A DNA stretch of 27,107 nucleotides. Source: a virus. Both the position numbers and the translations under genes were made by a program. The stretch's first letter is position 1, and the number at the start of each line of letters is the position of its first letter. Under the pieces are notes generated by a model. The model was not told the DNA's origin. It was given only the letters and a program-made list of their open reading frames with translations, and did no database searches. Below are positions 1 through 26,976 of the stretch, piece by piece. The stretch is from IMG/VR virus record IMGVR_UViG_3300041412_000048, positions 1 to 27,107 of that record, one strand, 5' to 3'.

Positions 1-642
1 CTCCTTCAGATTCAGATAGGTCGCCAGCATGACGGACTGCCATTGGCGCTCCGCAGCAGCCCTCGCAGCAGCCGCCGCAGCCCCCCCCGCATCCAACGCC
101 GCAGCCCCCGCAGCAGCCCCCGCAGCCCACGCCGCAGTCCACGCCGCAGCCCACGCAGCCCCCGCAGCAGCCCCCGCAGTCCCCGCCGCAGCCCACGCAT
201 CCCCCGCCGCATCCCCGATTTCGCCCCGGGCGAAAGCCCGGGTGGCTTCGATGGCCTTGCGGGGCCGGTCGTCGTTCGGGTACTTAGCCTCGTAGAAATG
301 GACGACGTGCTCGGCGCAATCGGCGGCGAACAGGCGCAGGTCCTGTTCCGAGATGTGGAGTTGACGGATCAAGCGGGCTTGGGCGAACGCTGTCTTGCCG
401 GTGCCGTCCGAAGATGTTGCGCCCCTGCCCTCAGCCAGCCAGATCGTGCAGTCGCCTCGCAGCCATTCGGCCAACGAGTACAGCTCGACCAGGTGATAGC
501 CCGAGGTGCAGCAATCGACGCTGGCGAGTTTGTCCATCCACTTGCCGGGCCGTTTGCCAACCGGCTTGTGCCAGGTGCCGGAGCCTCCGTGGATGGCATC
601 GGCGTTCTTGCCGAGGACTTTGTAGAGCGCTGTGGTGGTCAT
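1..642 (-). CDS. Ala/Trp-repeat protein, Imm5-like (partial), leaderless start
   Basis: 214 codons are visible and the frame is still open at the left edge. Residues 5-95 form one unit (YKVLGKNADAIHGG, GYHLVELYSLAEWLRG, TIWLAEGRG, AFAQARLIRQL). Residues 100-142 (LRLFAADCAEHVVHFYEAKY, PNDDRPRKAIEATRAFARGE) resemble, from memory, a family annotated as Imm5-like putative immunity proteins, also found in actinobacterial genomes and phages. Then comes an Ala/Gly/Trp tract (about 145-198; AAWAAAWTAAWAAGAAAGAA) and ERQWQSVMLATYLNL. The ATG follows a -10 box by six bases and has no Shine-Dalgarno. Its separate promoter and non-structural nature suggest an accessory (moron-like) gene at the end of the late operon. 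Function is unknown. Confidence 0.7.
   Translation of the reverse strand, partial: MTTTALYKVLGKNADAIHGGSGTWHKPVGKRPGKWMDKLASVDCCTSGYHLVELYSLAEWLRGDCTIWLAEGRGATSSDGTGKTAFAQARLIRQLHISEQDLRLFAADCAEHVVHFYEAKYPNDDRPRKAIEATRAFARGEIGDAAGDAWAAAGTAGAAAGAAWAAAWTAAWAAGAAAGAAALDAGGAAAAAARAAAERQWQSVMLATYLNLKE
46..210 (-). repeat. Low-complexity GCTGCGGSG repeat coding for an Ala/Gly/Trp tract
   Basis: Degenerate repeats of GCTGCGG, GCTGCTGCG and GCGTGG units, seen on the plus strand as CGCAGCCCC, encode an alanine-rich helix punctuated by Trp and Gly in the Imm5-like protein. The unit length is irregular but stays in frame, so it may expand or contract by slippage without breaking the gene. Confidence 0.7.
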
Positions 643-677
643 GCCACCAGTGTACGCAACAAGCGTTGCTAGGTCAA
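643..677 (-). promoter_or_regulatory. Leaderless sigma70-type promoter for the Imm5-like gene
   Basis: On the minus strand, TTGACC (677-672) is followed by 17 bases, TACACT (654-649), six bases (GGTGGC) and the ATG at 642. The -35 matches at five of six positions, the -10 at four and fits TANNNT. As at the 26941 promoter, the -35 contains the TGA stop of the preceding gene. The geometry is identical to that promoter to the base. Confidence 0.7.
656..669. promoter_or_regulatory. Palindromic operator GCAAC-N4-GTTGC
   Basis: GCAAC-AAGC-GTTGC on the plus strand, a perfect 5-bp inverted repeat with a 4-bp centre. It fills most of the spacer between the -35 and -10 of the promoter at 643-677. Apart from the copies at 26942-26971 no other exact occurrence was found by reading the window. 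Confidence 0.6.
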
Positions 678-958
678 TCCTGCTCTTGGATCGTGAAGGG
701 TTGGGTGTGGACGGACTTCACGCCCTTCACCTCGTCCAGCCGCTTGGACAGCTCGCGCACCTCCATGCGGGCCTGGAGGACCTGATCGCCCAGACGGCTG
801 CTCGTGCCACCGTTGGGCGTGACTTGCTTGTCGATGGTGACGATCCGCTGCTCGAGCTTGCCGAAGCGCACGGAGAGGCGAACGAGGCTGCCCAGGATGA
901 GTGCTGCGATGGGAACCAGTGTCTCGAATAGGGTCTGGCCCCAACTCGTCGCGAACAA
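674..958 (-). CDS. Second lysis-type membrane protein with coiled coil, 94 aa
   Basis: One hydrophobic span at about 11-28 (FETLVPIAALILGSLVRLSV) is followed by a charged coiled coil from 33 to 80 containing KQVTPNGGTSSRLGDQV, then RMEVRELSKRLDEV. The NGG...R/DQV pattern is familiar from small second-holin-like proteins in actinophage lysis cassettes. The start is TTG, with TGAGGT (the end of the gene before) six bases upstream; no ATG or GTG fits as well. Together with the upstream multi-span protein it suggests a two-component holin system. Its TGA stop overlaps the -35 box of the next promoter. Confidence 0.7.
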   Translation of the reverse strand: MFATSWGQTLFETLVPIAALILGSLVRLSVRFGKLEQRIVTIDKQVTPNGGTSSRLGDQVLQARMEVRELSKRLDEVKGVKSVHTQPFTIQEQD

Positions 959-967
959 CGGGGAACC

Positions 968-1432
968 TCAGGCGGCAGCGGGCGGTGCAGCCGCAGGGGT
1001 CGGAGCGAGCGTGGGAGCAGGCACGGAGGCGATCGGCGTGGGCGTGGCGACCGGAGCGGCCGTGGGCTCGGTGGGCGCCGGGGTGCTGGACGAGGTGACC
1101 GCGGTTGATCCGATCCCGAGCGCCCCACCGCCCACCACCAGGGCGAGCACCCCATCGACCTGCGTATTGGTGAAGATGCCCCGGGCGCCGAGCACGGTGA
1201 CGAGCACGAGTGCCGCGGTGAACAGGATCAGATGCGGGATCAGGTTCGCATTGCTCTGAGTGGAGCCGAGCACGATGCCGGTCGAGACCCCCCCGGCGGC
1301 CAGGACCACCATGACCACGCTGTACGCCTGCGTCGAGGTGGCACTGCCCAGCCCAGCGAGTACGCCGACCACGGCGAGTACGACCAGGGCCAGCAGCAGT
1401 TGGGGCAGGGACTTCACCAGGTTGGTCAGCAT
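968..1432 (-). CDS. Putative holin, multi-span membrane protein, 154 aa
   Basis: Hydrophobic spans lie at about 8-29 (SLPQLLLALVVLAVVGVLAG), 37-56, 65-83 (PHLILFTAALVLVTVLG) and a weaker one near 94-108. The last 45 residues are a Pro/Ala/Thr-rich tail (PTEPTAAPVATPTPIASVPA). TAGGAG, formed by the endolysin stop, lies four bases before the ATG. A small membrane protein directly after the endolysin is the standard place for a holin. The long Pro/Ala/Thr tail is unusual for a holin and might face the wall side. Confidence 0.7.
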   Translation of the reverse strand: MLTNLVKSLPQLLLALVVLAVVGVLAGLGSATSTQAYSVVMVVLAAGGVSTGIVLGSTQSNANLIPHLILFTAALVLVTVLGARGIFTNTQVDGVLALVVGGGALGIGSTAVTSSSTPAPTEPTAAPVATPTPIASVPAPTLAPTPAAAPPAAA

Positions 1433-1439
1433 GTCACTC

Positions 1440-2129
1440 CTACAGGTACGGGGGCGGATTGCCCGGGACGATGTGGTACAGAGCGGGTTGGCCCGGCGTG
1501 AGCCCGGCGTCGACCTCGAGCACGTAACCGCCGGCCCCGTCGTCGGCGATGCCCACGATGGGGTTCGTGTTGTTGCCGATGCCCCACTCGGCCAGGAACT
1601 TGGAGTTGGGACCCAGGTAGGGAGCCCCGGCGAAGGCGTAGACCGCCCCGTTGGCCCGCACGCACCAATAGCCCTGTCCCGCGGTGTTCCGAGCGATCAT
1701 GCCCTCAGGATAGGCCAGGCTCGGCTCGGGGTAGTGGACGTTGATCGCCCAGAGGCGCCCCATCACGTCGGTCCCGTAGTCGCCTCCGGTGGTAGAGGCA
1801 TCGGTCGGGCGCCCCGAGTTGTACATATCGCACGCGCCCTGCCAGGACCCGGCCGCCTTGAAGTTGTCGCTGAGCATCTGCGCGGCGATCTGCGCCTGCT
1901 CGGTGACCGGGAAGGGATCGGGGATCGTATGGCTGCGGTCGTCGAGCTGCCAGACGCCGTGGCCGTGGCCGTTGTCCCCGATCTCGTCGGTCAGGTTCGT
2001 CTCGCGCGACCCGACAGCCAGGAGCAGGCCCCGAGGAAGCTGGGATTCGATCTCAACCGCCCAGATCCAGGGCCATTGCGCCAGCGCCTTGTCGCACTCG
2101 GCGTAGAGGTCGGCAGGGGTGATGTCCAT
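1440..2129 (-). CDS. Endolysin with lysozyme-like domain and GYW-type wall-binding motif, 229 aa
   Basis: The N-terminal domain (about 1-140) resembles soluble lytic transglycosylase or goose-type lysozyme folds: LPRGLLLAVGSRETNLTDEI places the likely catalytic glutamate at E43, and GDNGHGHGVWQLDDRSH follows at 51-67, the usual G.GHG..Q.D segment. Residues 153-175 read GYWCVRANGAVYAFAGAPYL, like the GYWLVASDGGVFAFGDA repeats of actinobacterial surface proteins, so the C-terminal part probably binds the wall. Only one clear repeat is present. There is no signal peptide, consistent with export by the membrane proteins encoded next. The ATG shares its A with the tailspike stop. Confidence 0.8.
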   Translation of the reverse strand: MDITPADLYAECDKALAQWPWIWAVEIESQLPRGLLLAVGSRETNLTDEIGDNGHGHGVWQLDDRSHTIPDPFPVTEQAQIAAQMLSDNFKAAGSWQGACDMYNSGRPTDASTTGGDYGTDVMGRLWAINVHYPEPSLAYPEGMIARNTAGQGYWCVRANGAVYAFAGAPYLGPNSKFLAEWGIGNNTNPIVGIADDGAGGYVLEVDAGLTPGQPALYHIVPGNPPPYL

Positions 2130-3880
2130 CACACCGATTGGATACAACGCCACTTGGACGTGGCCCCGTTGAACATGAAGGTGACAGTCTTGGGCAGAGT
2201 GGTCGACCCGTTCGACGTGGTGGCGGCAGACACGCCGCTGTTCTCGGTGTTGACCCAGGTGATCGTCTCGGTTGATCCTGAGAAGTCGTAGATCCGGATG
2301 ACCACGGTCTGGCCGTCCTGAACATTGGAGGTCGACAACGTGATGGTCATGGTCGCCGCTGACGAGTTCGTGAAGTTGTAGGTCGAATACCACCCGGGCT
2401 GTCCTTGCGCCGTGCCGGCGTTCGACGTGACTGGGATGGTCCAGGCCGCGAGCTGGCCGAGAGGCCGGGACGATCCCGAGATGGGGGCATTGGCGTTCGA
2501 GAACCCGCAGCTCGAATAGAAGTAGGCGCCTCCGGTGTCGTTCAACTGACAGTTCTGGTACAGGAACGCGCAGCCCGAGTAGTTGATGTTGACCGCAGCG
2601 ATCCCCGTGCTGATCCCGGTGAAGGTGCAGGTGGCGGCCTCGAAGTACACACTCATGCCGAGGTTGATGTGGTTGAGCACGCCCTGGTGGGTACCGGAGT
2701 TGTACGAGCCGGTGCCGAACGTGCAGTTCGAGGCCGTGGCCGTGCCGTAGACGATCAGGTCGTAGCCCCCCGAGGTGCCCGCCGTGTTCGCTGCCGCCGA
2801 TTCCGACCAGTTCCCTTGGAACAGACAGCCGCCGTTGTTGTTCCCGCCGATGACGGCGGACGGCCCGTACTGGCAGTCGTTCGAGGCGGCGTTGGCCGAG
2901 GTGTTGTTGAACTGGCTGTTGAGCACGGCGACGCCAAAGGCACCTGCGCCCCCGCCGTCGATGAGCCCGGCCCCGTTGTTCCCGTCCCAGAAGCAGTTGA
3001 TGAACGTGGCTGCGGCCGAACTCGTCGAGTAGAACGGGTGGGTGATGACACCCCCGGTGTAGCTGGTCGCTCCTGTTGTACCGTTGCCGAGGAACAGGGC
3101 GTTCTCGAACAGGTGGCTGTTGATGTTCCCATCGAGCGCCACGCCAGCCACCGTGTAGTAGGAGAAGTCGCACCCGTTCGAGTGGATGAACCAGGCTCCG
3201 TTGTCCACGTAGAGGCCATAGAGCGCCGAGTAGCCGTAGCCCCAGAAGGAGATGTTGCTGAGGCCGTAGGTCGAGGACCAGACGGCGCTATTCGGCCCAG
3301 TGTTGCCCCGGACGAGACAGGTGATCCCCGAGCCGGCGTCGCTGATGCGGGTGACGTAGCCCTGGCCCGATCCGAAACCGTTGCTGGTCGTAAATCCACC
3401 GCACCCGTTGAGGGTGACGCCTTCGGGGAGCACGAACCCTGGCTGAACGACTCTGATGGCGGCGCTCGATACCGTGCCGTTGGGCTGGATGTCGGTCGTG
3501 AAGTAGTTGAAGGTGGTGTTGACCGTGAGGATTTTCGGAGTGCGGCTCTGGATGCCCGGGTTCGTGCCCAGCGCCCCGCCGATGACGTACTTGCCCACAT
3601 CGGCGGCGGTGATCGAAGCGTCGGCCCAGGAGTTGGCGGGGTAGTTGCCTGAGGTTGTCGAGTGGTAGGTGACCCCCGTGTCGACTCGTGCCGACGAGGA
3701 GACGGCGTAGTTACCAGCTTGGAGCTGGACCGTACCTCCCGCTGTCGCAACAGCAGCCAACGCCGCAGCGATGTTGGCCGTGTCGGTAGCAGCGACTCCA
3801 GTGGGCGGTGGAACCGAGACGAAGGTGCCGGCGCCCGGAGAGGCACCGAGGGCTCCGATGACACTCGATCCCATGACCAT
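2129..3880 (-). CDS. Tailspike with right-handed beta-helix (pectate-lyase-like), 583 aa
   Basis: Residues 33-58 (DTANIAAALAAVATAGGTVQ, then LQAGNY) are the classic opening of a pectate-lyase-type beta-helix in tailspikes. Residues about 180-470 contain repeated turns rich in Asn, Gly and aromatics (ALYGLYVDNGAWFIHSNGCD; ENALFLGNGTT; ATFINCFWDGNNGAG; CLFQGNWSES), as in stacked helical coils. The C-terminus (TVTFMFNGATSKWRCIQSV) looks like a beta-sandwich cap. Such spikes bind and often cleave surface polysaccharide; the catalytic residues are not identifiable by eye. The short head-binding region (about 20 residues) suggests that it attaches through another protein. Its TGA shares a base with the endolysin ATG. 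Confidence 0.85.
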   Translation of the reverse strand: MVMGSSVIGALGASPGAGTFVSVPPPTGVAATDTANIAAALAAVATAGGTVQLQAGNYAVSSSARVDTGVTYHSTTSGNYPANSWADASITAADVGKYVIGGALGTNPGIQSRTPKILTVNTTFNYFTTDIQPNGTVSSAAIRVVQPGFVLPEGVTLNGCGGFTTSNGFGSGQGYVTRISDAGSGITCLVRGNTGPNSAVWSSTYGLSNISFWGYGYSALYGLYVDNGAWFIHSNGCDFSYYTVAGVALDGNINSHLFENALFLGNGTTGATSYTGGVITHPFYSTSSAAATFINCFWDGNNGAGLIDGGGAGAFGVAVLNSQFNNTSANAASNDCQYGPSAVIGGNNNGGCLFQGNWSESAAANTAGTSGGYDLIVYGTATASNCTFGTGSYNSGTHQGVLNHINLGMSVYFEAATCTFTGISTGIAAVNINYSGCAFLYQNCQLNDTGGAYFYSSCGFSNANAPISGSSRPLGQLAAWTIPVTSNAGTAQGQPGWYSTYNFTNSSAATMTITLSTSNVQDGQTVVIRIYDFSGSTETITWVNTENSGVSAATTSNGSTTLPKTVTFMFNGATSKWRCIQSV

Positions 3881-15265: not shown

Positions 15266-15481
15266 CTACCTACTCGAGCGAGAGGACTTCCGCTTCCCTC
15301 GGTTCCACTTGGCGGCGTTCCGGGCGAAGTTGGCCCGCTTCTTCTGCTTGGCCGATTCCCGGGGATTGGAGAGGACCGACTTGGCGTGCTGCTGGACGGA
15401 CTCGCCGGCCGCCTTGGACGACGCGGTGAACTTGCCCCGGTTCTCGGGCTTGATGTGGATGCCGCTCTTTTTCCGAGCCAT
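15266..15481 (-). CDS. Small very basic protein, 71 aa
   Basis: MARKKSGIHIKPENRGKFTA leads into a helical middle and ends RANFARNAAKWNRGKRKSSR. The KKSGIHIKPENRGKFT start and the ANFARNAAKW end are recognisable from short basic proteins of unknown role found near phage structural genes. The ATG at 15481 shares its A with the preceding stop (TGATG) and has GGAGG four bases upstream; a TTG one codon earlier is possible. The charge suggests nucleic-acid contact or a packaged internal protein. Only two bases separate its stop from the next start. Confidence 0.75.
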   Translation of the reverse strand: MARKKSGIHIKPENRGKFTASSKAAGESVQQHAKSVLSNPRESAKQKKRANFARNAAKWNRGKRKSSRSSR

Positions 15482-16173
15482 CAAGCCTCCGGCGTGTCGA
15501 GACCCTCGCGCTTGTCCACGATCTGCTCCAGCATCGCCTCATAGCGCGCCATGCGGGACCGCAGCTCCTCGTTCTCGGCCTCCAACCGATCGGTGATCGC
15601 CCGGGAGGACGAGTCGACCCGATGCTCCTGGACGTTCGGCGCGGGGTAGGGCAGCATGTCGGGGCGCATGGCCGGGAAGACCACCCGCTGGTCGCTGAGC
15701 GTGTAGACCGAGAGCTTGGGGGCCGCTTCCATGAGCATCTCAATCGACTCAGCCCGGATAGCATAGCGGCCAAACAAGCCACTGAGCTGGTCGTGACGCT
15801 TCAAGATGACACCGCGGTCCCCATTGCCATCGTTGTAGGGAACTGGCTCGTCCATTGAGCGGGGGTCGCCCAAGGCGTCGACCAGCGCCTCGAAGGGCAC
15901 GAACGCCGACTCGCCCGGAGCGAGCACGTAGTGCTTGCGGTTCCACTGGAAGTGCCAGGTGCCGGTGATCTGCCGGTCGTAGTGGCACTTGTCGGTGGCG
16001 TCGAAGTACCGGAAGACCCGGGGGTTGTCCTCGTTCACCACCCGCAGGAACTCACCGAACAGGAGGATCGGCATGTCCCGGTTGGCGAGCGTGGGCGTGC
16101 GCGCCAGACGGGCCACCTGGGCATCGGCGGGAAGCTCGGGGGCGAGTTCGGGCTTGGCGAGGAACTGGGCCAT
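15481..16173 (-). CDS. Hypothetical virion-associated protein, 230 aa
   Basis: The ATG has AGGAG close upstream (tAGGAGcctcATG), formed by the end of the previous gene. Residues 60-110 hold a conserved-looking motif, GTWHFQWNRKHYVLAPGESA and VPFEALVDALGDPRS, which I have the impression of having seen in phage proteins of unknown function that bind in a head/tail module. Residues about 190-225 form a coiled coil (ITDRLEAENEELRSRMARYE). No signal peptide or enzyme motif is seen. The gene lies between the glycine-rich fibre and a small basic protein. A structural role is likely; details are unknown. Confidence 0.7.
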   Translation of the reverse strand: MAQFLAKPELAPELPADAQVARLARTPTLANRDMPILLFGEFLRVVNEDNPRVFRYFDATDKCHYDRQITGTWHFQWNRKHYVLAPGESAFVPFEALVDALGDPRSMDEPVPYNDGNGDRGVILKRHDQLSGLFGRYAIRAESIEMLMEAAPKLSVYTLSDQRVVFPAMRPDMLPYPAPNVQEHRVDSSSRAITDRLEAENEELRSRMARYEAMLEQIVDKREGLDTPEA

Positions 16174-21149: not shown

Positions 21150-23000
21150 TCAGCTAGGGCGATCCGCTGCGGACTGCTTCTGACCAGGAGGTTTCTGGGC
21201 CTGCTTGGCGGCGAGCTGCATCTGGGCGAGCTGGGCGGCCTGCTGCTCCTGCTTCTTCTTGCGATCGAGGATGGCCTGGGCGTGGGAGACCCGGAACGCC
21301 TGGAGGACGTAGAGGTCGTCGACCACGTTCATCTTCTTCAGGTTCACGGCCTCGTTGATCCGGGCCGCCCGGCTGGTCGGCTTGGACGATCCGGCGTTCA
21401 CCATGAGCCCGAAACGCAGCGGGGCGAAGGTGACCTTGCCCTTGGCGTCCTGGGTCGGAGCATAGAAGTGCTGAGCGGCGAGCCGGATCGAGATCGGTTG
21501 ACCCTCCTCGCCCACGATGGCCATGAAGCGCGGGGTGTCGTAGTTGATGACGATCAGGTTGGCGACCAGCTCGCCCGCTTTCCTCAACGTCAACTCGAGG
21601 TTTCGTTGTGCCGAGCGCACCCGGACGAAGCCCGCCTCCTGACCGGCCTGGACTTGCTTGTCGGTCGCCCGGCCGCTCGGGACCTCACCGCGCTGGGTGG
21701 CGCTGAGCCCAGCGATGCGCTCGATCTCGTCGCGCCAGAAGCCGACCATCTCCATGATGGCGGGAGGCAGGTTCGGCGGCTGTATCCACGAGGGCTTGTT
21801 CTGCTGGCCGCCGGTCGGTCCCCCGTTCACGTCGTAGATCTCGCCGGGGCGGTTGCGGATGGTGGTGCGGTCCGCTCCGGAGCCCTTCACCCCAACCATG
21901 ATCGGGTTGCCGGTGAAGATGATGTTGCTCTGCGCCATGGCGAGCAGGGTGTTCATCTGCTGCTGGCAGGGCGCTAGGTCTCTGAGCAGGGGCGATCCCC
22001 AGAACTCCCCGGTCTCCACGTCCACGTACCTGACATAAGGGTGCCGATCTGTATGGAACAGATTTTCAGCGAGTTCGTCCAGGAGAATCCGGTTACCCGA
22101 CCAGACGATGACCCGCCACTGGTCGACGATGACGGTCTCGGTGTCACCCATGCTTGGATCACCCGGCGTCACCTCCTCCTCGTAGTTCTCTCGGAACCAG
22201 CACTCGTAGACGTTCACGCCGCGCGACTCGGTGATGTGCTTCTTGGCCTGGCCCTGTTGGCCCCAGGTGGTCGGCCCCTGACCAGCGTTGATGGGGGTCA
22301 TCAGGCCGCCGAGGTAGTTGCGGAGCTGGGCCGGGCGCCCGCCCTGGCTCGGCGGGATGTGGTCGGAATCGCTGTCGCCCGTGATGACCGCGTCCTCGAT
22401 CAGGTACTTCGGCGTGTCGGGGAACCGGCGCTCGATCTGGGCCGGCGACATCGTGTGGACCTCGATGATGTACTCGGCATCGTCCAGATTGGTGGCGTAG
22501 GGGTCGACGTACAAGCACCATGGCGACGTGGACTTGAGCGCGACCTGTCCGAGACCCTGTTCGAGTCCCTGGTCCCAGGTCACCTTGAGGAAGCCCGCGC
22601 CGTAGATGGCCGAGTCCCAGAGCATCTTCACGATCTGGGCGTACCAGCCTTCGGTGCGCAGCACCGAGTTCATGATGGCCTCGAGCTGCTCGGCTTGGAT
22701 GTCGGTGGTCATGGCGTAGAGCGAGAAGGGATCGGCCGCCGGGGTGACGGTGAACATCACCTCCTGGTCGGTCATCCAGCCGATGCGGGCGTCAATGGTC
22801 GGGAAGACCTCGTTGGCCCGGGTGCCCGGGGCATTGGGCACATTCGGCGCCGCCCGGTTCATGGTGACCCGGTAGTTGCGCTTCCACTCCGAGGCCATCT
22901 GGCCCTTGGCGTCCTTGGCCTGCTGGTACAGGTCTTGGAGCCGTCGGAGGAACCCCTGCTCGTCGTAGACCGGCGGGGCCTCTACCTGCACGAGTGTCAA
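21150..23000 (-). CDS. Portal protein, P22-like
   Basis: The portal forms the dodecameric ring at the capsid vertex through which DNA passes, and binds terminase and the connector. Recognition rests on overall pattern and place: 616 residues, just after terL and before scaffold and capsid. N-terminal helices (YQQAKDAKGQMASEWKRNYR) are followed by the recurrent portal features AIYGAGFLKVTWD, YVDPYATNLDDAEYIIE, a PYVRYVDVETGEFWGSPLLR stretch and the helical IERIAGLSATQRGE. The C-terminus is Gln/Lys-rich and probably disordered. The start is TTG: it makes a TTGA overlap with the previous stop and has AAGGAG eight bases upstream, while the in-frame GTG three codons later is too far from that site. 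Podovirus-type portals of this family are usually about 600-725 residues. Confidence 0.85.
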   Translation of the reverse strand: MTLVQVEAPPVYDEQGFLRRLQDLYQQAKDAKGQMASEWKRNYRVTMNRAAPNVPNAPGTRANEVFPTIDARIGWMTDQEVMFTVTPAADPFSLYAMTTDIQAEQLEAIMNSVLRTEGWYAQIVKMLWDSAIYGAGFLKVTWDQGLEQGLGQVALKSTSPWCLYVDPYATNLDDAEYIIEVHTMSPAQIERRFPDTPKYLIEDAVITGDSDSDHIPPSQGGRPAQLRNYLGGLMTPINAGQGPTTWGQQGQAKKHITESRGVNVYECWFRENYEEEVTPGDPSMGDTETVIVDQWRVIVWSGNRILLDELAENLFHTDRHPYVRYVDVETGEFWGSPLLRDLAPCQQQMNTLLAMAQSNIIFTGNPIMVGVKGSGADRTTIRNRPGEIYDVNGGPTGGQQNKPSWIQPPNLPPAIMEMVGFWRDEIERIAGLSATQRGEVPSGRATDKQVQAGQEAGFVRVRSAQRNLELTLRKAGELVANLIVINYDTPRFMAIVGEEGQPISIRLAAQHFYAPTQDAKGKVTFAPLRFGLMVNAGSSKPTSRAARINEAVNLKKMNVVDDLYVLQAFRVSHAQAILDRKKKQEQQAAQLAQMQLAAKQAQKPPGQKQSAADRPS

Positions 23001-25886: not shown

Positions 25887-26404
25887 TATGTCGGCTGGTC
25901 GTCGCTCCCCTGCCACGGCCCCGGCAAGAAGTCCTCCAAGCCGAGACGGTCCGCCTCCGTCGCCATCTCCCTTAGCTTCGCCTGCAAGTCGGCGCGCTCC
26001 TTCAGCAAACGAGACTGCTCGTTCTCGATCGTCTCCCGGGCCAGGACCGCCTCGATCCCCGGCGCCAGCGGAGTGGAGTCGTAGTCGAACCCGATCGGCT
26101 TCTCGTTCCAGCTCTGCTGCGGCGGCGACGAGTAGATCGTCGGCGGTGATTCCCGACCCAGGACCAGCCGCTCCACCAATGCCCGATCCTCGGCCAGTGA
26201 ACTCCTCATCAGCTCCATCATCGAGGTCCACATCTCCGTCGAGAAGGGGGTCGAATCGGGAGGCGCCGAAATCGGGGTCGGCGGCGTACTCGGAGTCGGG
26301 GAAGTCGGGCTCGACGTTGGGCTCTGACGCAGGAGGAGGAAACACAAGGCGCCCGTCAGGACCAAGGACAGGAGCCACCCACTCAGGATCAGCGCCGTGG
26401 TCAC
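25886..26404 (-). CDS. Membrane-anchored coiled-coil protein, 172 aa
   Basis: The GTG start is chosen because it forms a GTGA overlap with the stop of the gene before; an upstream ATG at 26500 would bury 32 residues in that gene. Residues 4-25 are a single hydrophobic span (ALILSGWLLSLVLTGALCFL). A Ser/Thr/Pro-rich linker follows at about 28-55, then a helical part, and a charged coiled coil at about 125-155 (ETIENEQSRLLKERADLQAK). No family is recognised. A membrane anchor with a stalk-like linker is unexpected just ahead of the terminase genes. It could be a membrane-tethered assembly factor or a superinfection protein. The ORF in the other frame (25731-26411) is read here only for its last 51 codons. 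Confidence 0.65.
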   Translation of the reverse strand: MTTALILSGWLLSLVLTGALCFLLLRQSPTSSPTSPTPSTPPTPISAPPDSTPFSTEMWTSMMELMRSSLAEDRALVERLVLGRESPPTIYSSPPQQSWNEKPIGFDYDSTPLAPGIEAVLARETIENEQSRLLKERADLQAKLREMATEADRLGLEDFLPGPWQGSDDQPT

Positions 26405-26607
26405 GAGGCATCTTCGACCTGGGGTTTCGGGCAGAACTTGGCGTACCGTTGGGCGGCGCCCTGCCGGGTCATGCCCACCGCCTCTCCGATCTGCGTCCAA
26501 CTGATCCCTTGGCGGCGCGCGCCCTTGATCGCGGCGACGAGCAGCTCGTCGAAGTCGTTGCGGCCGTCGGCGCAGCGCCGGATGTCGGCCAGGAAATCAG
26601 GCGCCAC
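26401..26607 (-). CDS. Small helix-turn-helix DNA-binding protein, 68 aa
   Basis: Residues about 35-56 (ISWTQIGEAVGMTRQGAAQR) have the pattern of a helix-turn-helix: a first helix ending in IGEAVG, a turn at GMT, and a recognition helix RQGAAQRYAKF. This is typical of short actinobacterial and phage proteins with a sigma-region-4-like or MerR-like fold. The gene starts with GTG, overlaps the previous gene by 11 bases, and its TGA overlaps the GTG of the next gene (GTGA). It sits one gene behind a promoter that carries palindromes, so an autoregulator is a reasonable guess. A second terminase-like DNA-binding component is an alternative. The DNA-binding call is fairly safe; the target is inference. 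Confidence 0.75.
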   Translation of the reverse strand: MAPDFLADIRRCADGRNDFDELLVAAIKGARRQGISWTQIGEAVGMTRQGAAQRYAKFCPKPQVEDAS

Positions 26608-26941
26608 GGCGCATCTTCCCGAGGTCGATGCCGCCCTGCAAGGCCTGCTCCACCCCGGCGGTCAGCGCTGCCTTCTTGGCGTTGTCCTCGGCGGCGCCCA
26701 GGATCTCGGCAACCCGGTGGGCGAAGTCCAGCTTGGCCTCGGCCAGTGCGCCGACCTGCATCAGCAGATGCTCTAAGAACACCGCGAGCCGCATGTTCTC
26801 CCACATGCCGGGCGGGAACTGGATCTGGACCCCGAACTTGCCGCCCATGAGGGCCTGGATGCGCTGGCCGTTGGACCTGTCGAGGTCGGCCAGCTCGTTC
26901 TCCTCGGTCGGCAGATCCTCGGCGCTCACGTCATCGTCCAT
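26597..26941 (-). CDS. Hypothetical protein, 114 aa, leaderless start
   Basis: Not recognised. The first 23 residues are acidic (MDDDVSAEDLPTEENELADL). The middle has a beta-like segment (GKFGVQIQFPPGMWENMRLA), and residues 52-105 look helical and alanine-rich. The ATG is chosen because a -35/-10 promoter places the transcription start at or beside this codon, and no Shine-Dalgarno sequence lies upstream. The TGA stop overlaps the GTG of the following helix-turn-helix gene by 11 bases, so the two are probably translated together. As first gene of the unit it could be a packaging accessory or a regulator, but nothing in the sequence decides this. Confidence 0.75.
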   Translation of the reverse strand: MDDDVSAEDLPTEENELADLDRSNGQRIQALMGGKFGVQIQFPPGMWENMRLAVFLEHLLMQVGALAEAKLDFAHRVAEILGAAEDNAKKAALTAGVEQALQGGIDLGKMRRGA

Positions 26942-26971
26942 GCAACTATTGTTGCAGGGAACTACCGTTGC
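26942..26971. promoter_or_regulatory. Tandem palindromic operator
   Basis: GCAAC-TATT-GTTGC on the plus strand at 26942-26955 is a perfect inverted repeat; one extra base pair (T/A at 26941/26956) extends it to TGCAAC/GTTGCA. Two bases on, GGAAC-TACC-GTTGC at 26958-26971 is the same element with one mismatch. The centres are 16 bp apart. One copy covers the -10 and the sequence up to the ATG, the other the spacer and the edge of the -35, so a bound protein would block RNA polymerase. The binding protein is not known. Confidence 0.6.
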
Positions 26972-26976
26972 GTCAA
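26942..26976 (-). promoter_or_regulatory. Leaderless sigma70-type promoter for the 114-aa gene
   Basis: On the minus strand, TTGACG (26976-26971) is followed by 17 bases, AACAAT (26953-26948), six bases and the ATG at 26941. The -35 matches the consensus at five of six positions and the -10 at four. The transcription start would fall on or beside the ATG, giving a leaderless message, which agrees with the lack of a Shine-Dalgarno. The -35 contains the stop codon of the preceding gene. Confidence 0.65.

Follow-up and report, generated by a model that had tools for sequence, protein, structure and literature searches.

An Imm5-like gene with its own promoter and a putative operator at the end of a phage contig: a possible early accessory gene of a recombination block

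The stretch of DNA analysed here (the window) is a whole IMG/VR virus contig of 27,107 bases, classed as linear, whose first positions lie inside a leftward gene for an Imm5-like protein. The features of this locus and of a second, operator-bearing unit at the other end of the contig are collected in Table 1. The open reading frame (642..1, minus strand) is nearly complete: the residues at its end, AERQWQSVMLATYLNLKE, can be aligned to the C-termini of relatives, which stop within ~10 residues of that point. When the gene is compared with four relatives at 66–73% amino acid identity, codon position 3 carries most substitutions; against L003, the Imm5-like gene of the sister phage G002, the counts by codon position are 33, 25 and 81. 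This bias supports the frame being a coding one. A Pfam profile search places residues 98–181 in Imm5_like (PF21805) with 39.4 bits against a cut-off of 25, which bears out the family membership that an earlier note on this DNA had proposed. An exact 30-bp search found no near-identical copies of the gene in viral contigs, and no annotated known phage matches the window's own protein at 1e-5; homologues were reached via relatives. The family is already known, though uncharacterised, and the window protein adds one more member to it.

Table 1. Features of the window at the Imm5-like gene and at the second operator-bearing unit
Feature	Position	Strand	Basis or remark
Imm5-like gene	1..642	-	ATG start, 214 codons open; stop beyond record end
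Divergent DUF7666-type beta domain, N-terminal half, residues 1-97	352..642	-	Profile scores and fold match
Conserved Imm5-like core, residues 98-142, DLRLFAADCAEHVV...YPNDDRPRKAIEATR	217..351	-	Invariant residues
Ala/Gly/Trp repeat array, residues 143-197	52..216	-	Tandem repeats 51-216; helical in models, low confidence
Sigma-70-like promoter TTGACC-17-TACACT	649..677	-	Six bases upstream of the Imm5-like ATG
Palindrome GCAAC-N4-GTTGC, putative operator	656..669	.	Within promoter spacer
Small protein, hydrophobic N-terminus and charged tail	674..958	-	Adjoins Imm5-like promoter; no family match
Hydrophobic small protein, presumed holin-like	968..1432	-	Sequence and position only
Presumed cell-wall hydrolase, lysis cassette	1440..2129	-	Position only; no family match
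Small HTH protein, candidate regulator	26401..26607	-	phrog_686 HTH DNA-binding protein, E 7.5e-9
First gene of the other operator-bearing unit (26941 gene)	26597..26941	-	No family match
Second putative operator copy, exact half-sites	26942..26955	.	Abuts ATG of the 26941 gene
Promoter-like TTGACG-17-AACAAT, 26941 unit	26948..26976	-	Shuffles of the region average 1.2 such matches
Third putative operator copy, one mismatch	26958..26971	.	Beside the -35 of the 26941 promoter; tandem pair as in sister

Much of the genomic context of the gene comes from G002, a contig of 40,270 bases that is probably complete, as a 159-bp repeat (99.4% identity) is found at its termini. From terminase to tail G002 and the window are collinear, TerL being 58–68% identical in its two pieces, and by comparison with it the window record may miss roughly 13 kb. 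Three genes lie downstream of L003: the first encodes a RecE/YqaJ exonuclease (E 2e-79), and the end of L003 shares one base with its start codon; the others encode a RecT-like protein (2e-27) and a RusA-like resolvase (8e-6). The earlier note had described a terminal accessory gene that follows the lysis genes. The end position proves to be that of the contig, the gene being internal in the complete sister. The place after lysis genes fits by position, and a GH25 endolysin lies upstream of L003 together with small genes; the window's own genes at 674–2129, however, are without a convincing family match. Elsewhere in the two phages, a 72-residue basic protein of the window (15266–15484, minus strand) is 81% identical to the product of G002 22363–22566, a copy at a non-syntenic site after the tape-measure gene, and this gene has moved.

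Structure prediction agrees with the two-part build that had been read from the sequence. The AlphaFold model has a beta N-domain (~1–97) and an all-helical C-terminal half (99–209), and the model of the sister's complete protein likewise shows a beta N-domain plus helices. The single long Ala/Gly/Trp helix envisaged before is retained only in its helical character: the array is predicted to be helical, but with low confidence and folded back, as several helices or a hairpin instead of one long rod. The Imm5_like match is not a matter of mere Ala-rich composition, because the array is preceded by a PNDDRPRKAI-type core with residues (P122, D124, R126, P127 and I131) that are invariant across 27 relatives. 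The near relative L002 spans almost the full Imm5_like model and passes Imm5 (PF14423) too, and at E ≤ 0.01 the 27 family members, window included, give 26 matches to Imm5_like, 17 to Imm5 and 9 to DUF7666.

The assignment of the N-terminal half is less direct. With the DUF7666 profile (PF24703) it scores 13 bits, below the cut-off of 27, whereas the relatives L018 and L030 score above that cut-off. Its top viral fold match is a DUF7666 protein, a weak match at probability 1.00, E 0.011 and TM 0.32 over the whole query, and N4 rIIB-like proteins are also found, weakly, among the viral fold matches. Sequence and fold searches of the PDB returned no relative, NCBIfam and PADLOC searches gave nothing useful, and the literature collection searched contained no reports on phage Imm5-like proteins or on DUF7666. 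The phage of L005 carries two nearly tandem genes (183–884 and 1289–1936) with similar DUF7666-type N-termini.

The promoter ahead of the Imm5-like gene is the only sigma-70-like match in positions 1–3000, where shuffles give 0.1, and a transcript from it would start at or beside the start codon. Its spacer holds the GCAAC-N4-GTTGC palindrome. Both elements are as the earlier note had reported, and its view that the gene need not depend on late transcription is likely to be right. The claim that the operator is common to the 26941 unit also held up, as evidenced by the half-sites that recur at 26942–26955 and by the sister, which pairs the same two genes with a palindrome of its own. For the GCAAC arm the expectation is 0.02 per window, against two seen, and 0 of 200 shuffles reach two. 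However, some 5-base arm occurs twice in 91.5% of window shuffles, so that the window by itself argues weakly for a shared operator, and the stronger test is that provided by the sister. A hairpin was rejected as an account of the palindrome, which shows no excess stability when folded single-stranded.

The GCAAC palindrome does not occur in G002. Its palindrome is GCAGG-N4-CCTGC instead, present in four exact copies and a fifth that is nearly so, and some arm occurs four times in 7% of G002 shuffles. These sites stand before the Imm5-like gene, before a short minus-strand ORF at ~32.5 kb and before the gene at 33431, and a tandem pair precedes the gene at 35067, with a TTGAC / -10 / ATG layout that matches the window pair before 26941. 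The gene behind the pair (35067–35678) thus stands behind a tandem palindrome of the same kind as the 26941 gene, whose C-terminal half resembles it by eye, at a BLAST similarity not above threshold. Just after the 26941 gene the window encodes the small HTH protein, a homologue of which is found at the corresponding place in G002. Chance does not account for palindromes that sit next to promoters and starts; the two diverged phages keep one before the same two genes with the half-site changed, as would be expected if regulator and operators co-evolve. In the window the palindrome occupies the spacer of the promoter, but in G002 it is found upstream of the -10 and not within a clear -35, so that the regulator may repress or may activate this gene, and repression is not certain.

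An exonuclease or annealing gene lies nearby in six of the seven close relatives with flanking DNA, and in L011, too, the Imm5-like gene lies ahead of exo and RecT genes. Among the 25 commonest of 170 neighbour-protein families are matches to RecT, Erf, RecE, exonuclease, HNH and regulator families. Across the wider family a recognisable recombination gene is present at 9 of 35 loci, within the flanking DNA examined, and the recombination link is therefore a feature of the near relatives. In Pseudomonas phage AF (AF_046) and Erwinia phage phiEt88 the homologue is found between the repressor and ERF/exo or exo/RecT genes; other homologues occur in replication regions, or among small genes with no assigned function. 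No E. coli genomes carrying the AF homologue were found. That the window phage has an actinobacterial host is suggested by its G+C content and by a 72%-identical copy in an Actinomycetes genome bin. In Curvibacter phage P26059A (L100:3992–4579) the homologue bears the name "tail fiber protein", which it probably owes to its repeats, and a Lar-family anti-restriction gene lies nearby. The plasmid copies are solitary and labelled "putative immunity protein". The family, whose members are scattered among actinobacterial and proteobacterial phages, an archaeal virus and plasmids, goes by a predicted name only and has no solved relative.

At the variable position of the repeat array, one codon suffix tends to prevail within each genome. 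Family-wide, NGG makes up 164 of 236 variable array codons, encoding Trp, Gly or Arg, and it is the main variable codon in the arrays of the window (52–216), L002, L003, L004, L011, L047 and L057. The rare codon AGG for Arg is enriched in the arrays of several GC-rich genomes (6 of 8 array Arg in L002, 8 of 10 in L004 and 10 of 12 in L011, against 8–11% elsewhere in those loci). To judge from the sequences, this codon bias points to recent short-unit expansion, lineage by lineage. The contigs of L080 (7845–8429) and L081 (7845–8441) show no difference in the 8150 bases upstream, while many in-frame changes separate their arrays, just one of which contains ACT codons. Because the two differ only there, the array appears able to diverge at a much higher rate than the genome around it. 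Short-read misassembly may contribute to this difference, yet it would hardly invent a new codon. Within three other near-identical contig groups the arrays are identical. A diversity-generating retroelement was judged unlikely as the source of the variation, since the arrays use few codons, and codon-unit slippage or recombination fits better. We regard it as quite doubtful that the array is a rapidly diversifying binding surface, in which in-frame codon-unit shuffling in an early anti-host protein would track a changing host target. If confirmed in populations, a hypervariable array would be an unusual form of rapid phage protein diversification.

Many contigs end at or near the Imm5-like array (the window at position 1, L005, L010, L017/L027, L029, L035 and L038), and the array probably breaks assemblies. 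In Vibrio phage 1.154.O (L103:3498–4055), CRISPR spacers are annotated inside the Imm5-like gene, probably a false call from tandem repeats. A neighbouring frame (the gene upstream of L034; L082:3–887) is made up of four-residue repeats of the SV-R-D / SV-W-A type, with variable positions as in the Ala arrays and SV replacing AA.

Taken together, these observations lead us to prefer, at a rough probability of 0.4, the reading that this is an early accessory gene under repressor/operator control that opens the recombination block and whose product blocks a host defence or nuclease. This reading draws its support from the promoter directly before the ATG, from the one palindrome kind per phage that marks the promoters of the same two genes, from L003 directly preceding the RecE-like, RecT-like and RusA-like genes, from the AF and phiEt88 homologues between repressor and recombination genes, and from the neighbours, both in their families (RecT, Erf, RecE, exonuclease and regulators) and in their recurrence beside six of seven close relatives. 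What the sequences show is the gene with its family and architecture, the promoter and the palindromes, and where the gene lies in relatives; we infer the timing, the control, the host-factor binding and its target as follows. The protein would be made soon after infection or on induction, and would stay inside the cell, unpackaged. A phage regulator, for which the phrog_686 HTH protein is the candidate, would control the gene. Together, the DUF7666-type beta domain and the array-bearing helical half of Imm5 type would form a binding protein against a host factor, the likeliest targets being a defence component or a host nuclease that processes DNA ends (RecBCD/AdnAB).

In phage lambda, ral, kil and gam sit ahead of bet and exo. 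An inhibitor of host defence or of a nuclease would be the most likely function because, by analogy, the position of the Imm5-like gene resembles that region. Against the preferred reading, PADLOC gave no match and a Pfam scan up to E 10 showed no Gam family. The scarcity of recombination genes over the 35 loci and the uncertain repression also speak against it, and in the window the gene that would come next lies beyond the record. The Thoeris inhibitor Tad8 (PF25189) was considered and rejected, with no match in the window's record and a sub-threshold one in a single distant relative.

The name of the family invites a different explanation, that of a true immunity protein which shields the infected cell by binding and neutralising a polymorphic, bacteriocin-like, competing-phage or host abortive-system toxin. 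Imm5 takes its name from polymorphic-toxin immunity proteins known by prediction, whose predicted targets are DYW deaminase and CdiA-C toxins (PMC3482391). Imm5_like membership, the match of L002 to Imm5 proper and the solitary plasmid copies, which recall toxin-less poly-immunity loci, all speak for it. However, the function of Imm5 is itself a prediction, and no toxin gene was seen next to the Imm5-like gene in the sister or in any annotated phage or plasmid inspected, so that "immunity protein" is only a label. The immunity function is unsupported as the earlier note put it and to us unlikely, while the protein may protect against competing phages.

Neighbourhood could also be taken at face value. 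The one-base overlap with the exonuclease start codon in the sister, and the same gene order in L011, would suit an accessory part of the phage recombination machinery, such as a RecE/RecT scaffold or modulator with no anti-host role; most of the distant family members, however, have no recognisable recombination gene nearby, and the cellular plasmid copies stand alone, so we hold this to be decidedly unlikely. The freely varying length and content of the array and the scattered distribution would fit some other change of host physiology, or a near-neutral passenger with a drifting array. Against this, core and frame persist in phages that have diverged widely, and codon-position bias is seen in the N-half, so that the protein is under selection; this reading too is improbable. 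The place directly after the presumed lysis genes and the relative named for a tail fiber would suggest a virion or lysis component that closes the late region, but this is largely refuted and very improbable indeed: the gene has its own promoter, its relatives lie in early, replication or recombination regions, its PHROG matches are to families with no function assigned rather than to structural ones, and the "tail fiber" copy sits among small genes near the anti-restriction gene.

Compared with known systems, the gene resembles lambda ral, kil and gam as a small, putatively early accessory gene before recombination genes, probably under repressor control; with no sequence or fold similarity to the Imm5-like protein shown, this is a working analogy only. 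A likeness to DUF7666 (PF24703) would consist in the weak fold match of the N-half, which is below the cut-off in the window, and in the clear matches of two relatives. With PF21805 and PF14423 the window protein shares the Imm5_like match, and L002 the Imm5 match as well; it differs in being phage-borne, in the fused DUF7666-type half, in the expanded Ala/Trp/Gly array and in having no toxin partner in view. Finally, the homologues of AF (AF_046) and phiEt88 have the Imm5-like core and the same kind of place, between repressor and exo/annealing genes, but their N-half is not of DUF7666 type and they belong to isolated phages of Gammaproteobacteria. Its place at the operator-marked head of a phage recombination block would give the Imm5-like protein a concrete role, as an inhibitor of a host nuclease or defence, which is testable in isolated phages such as these.
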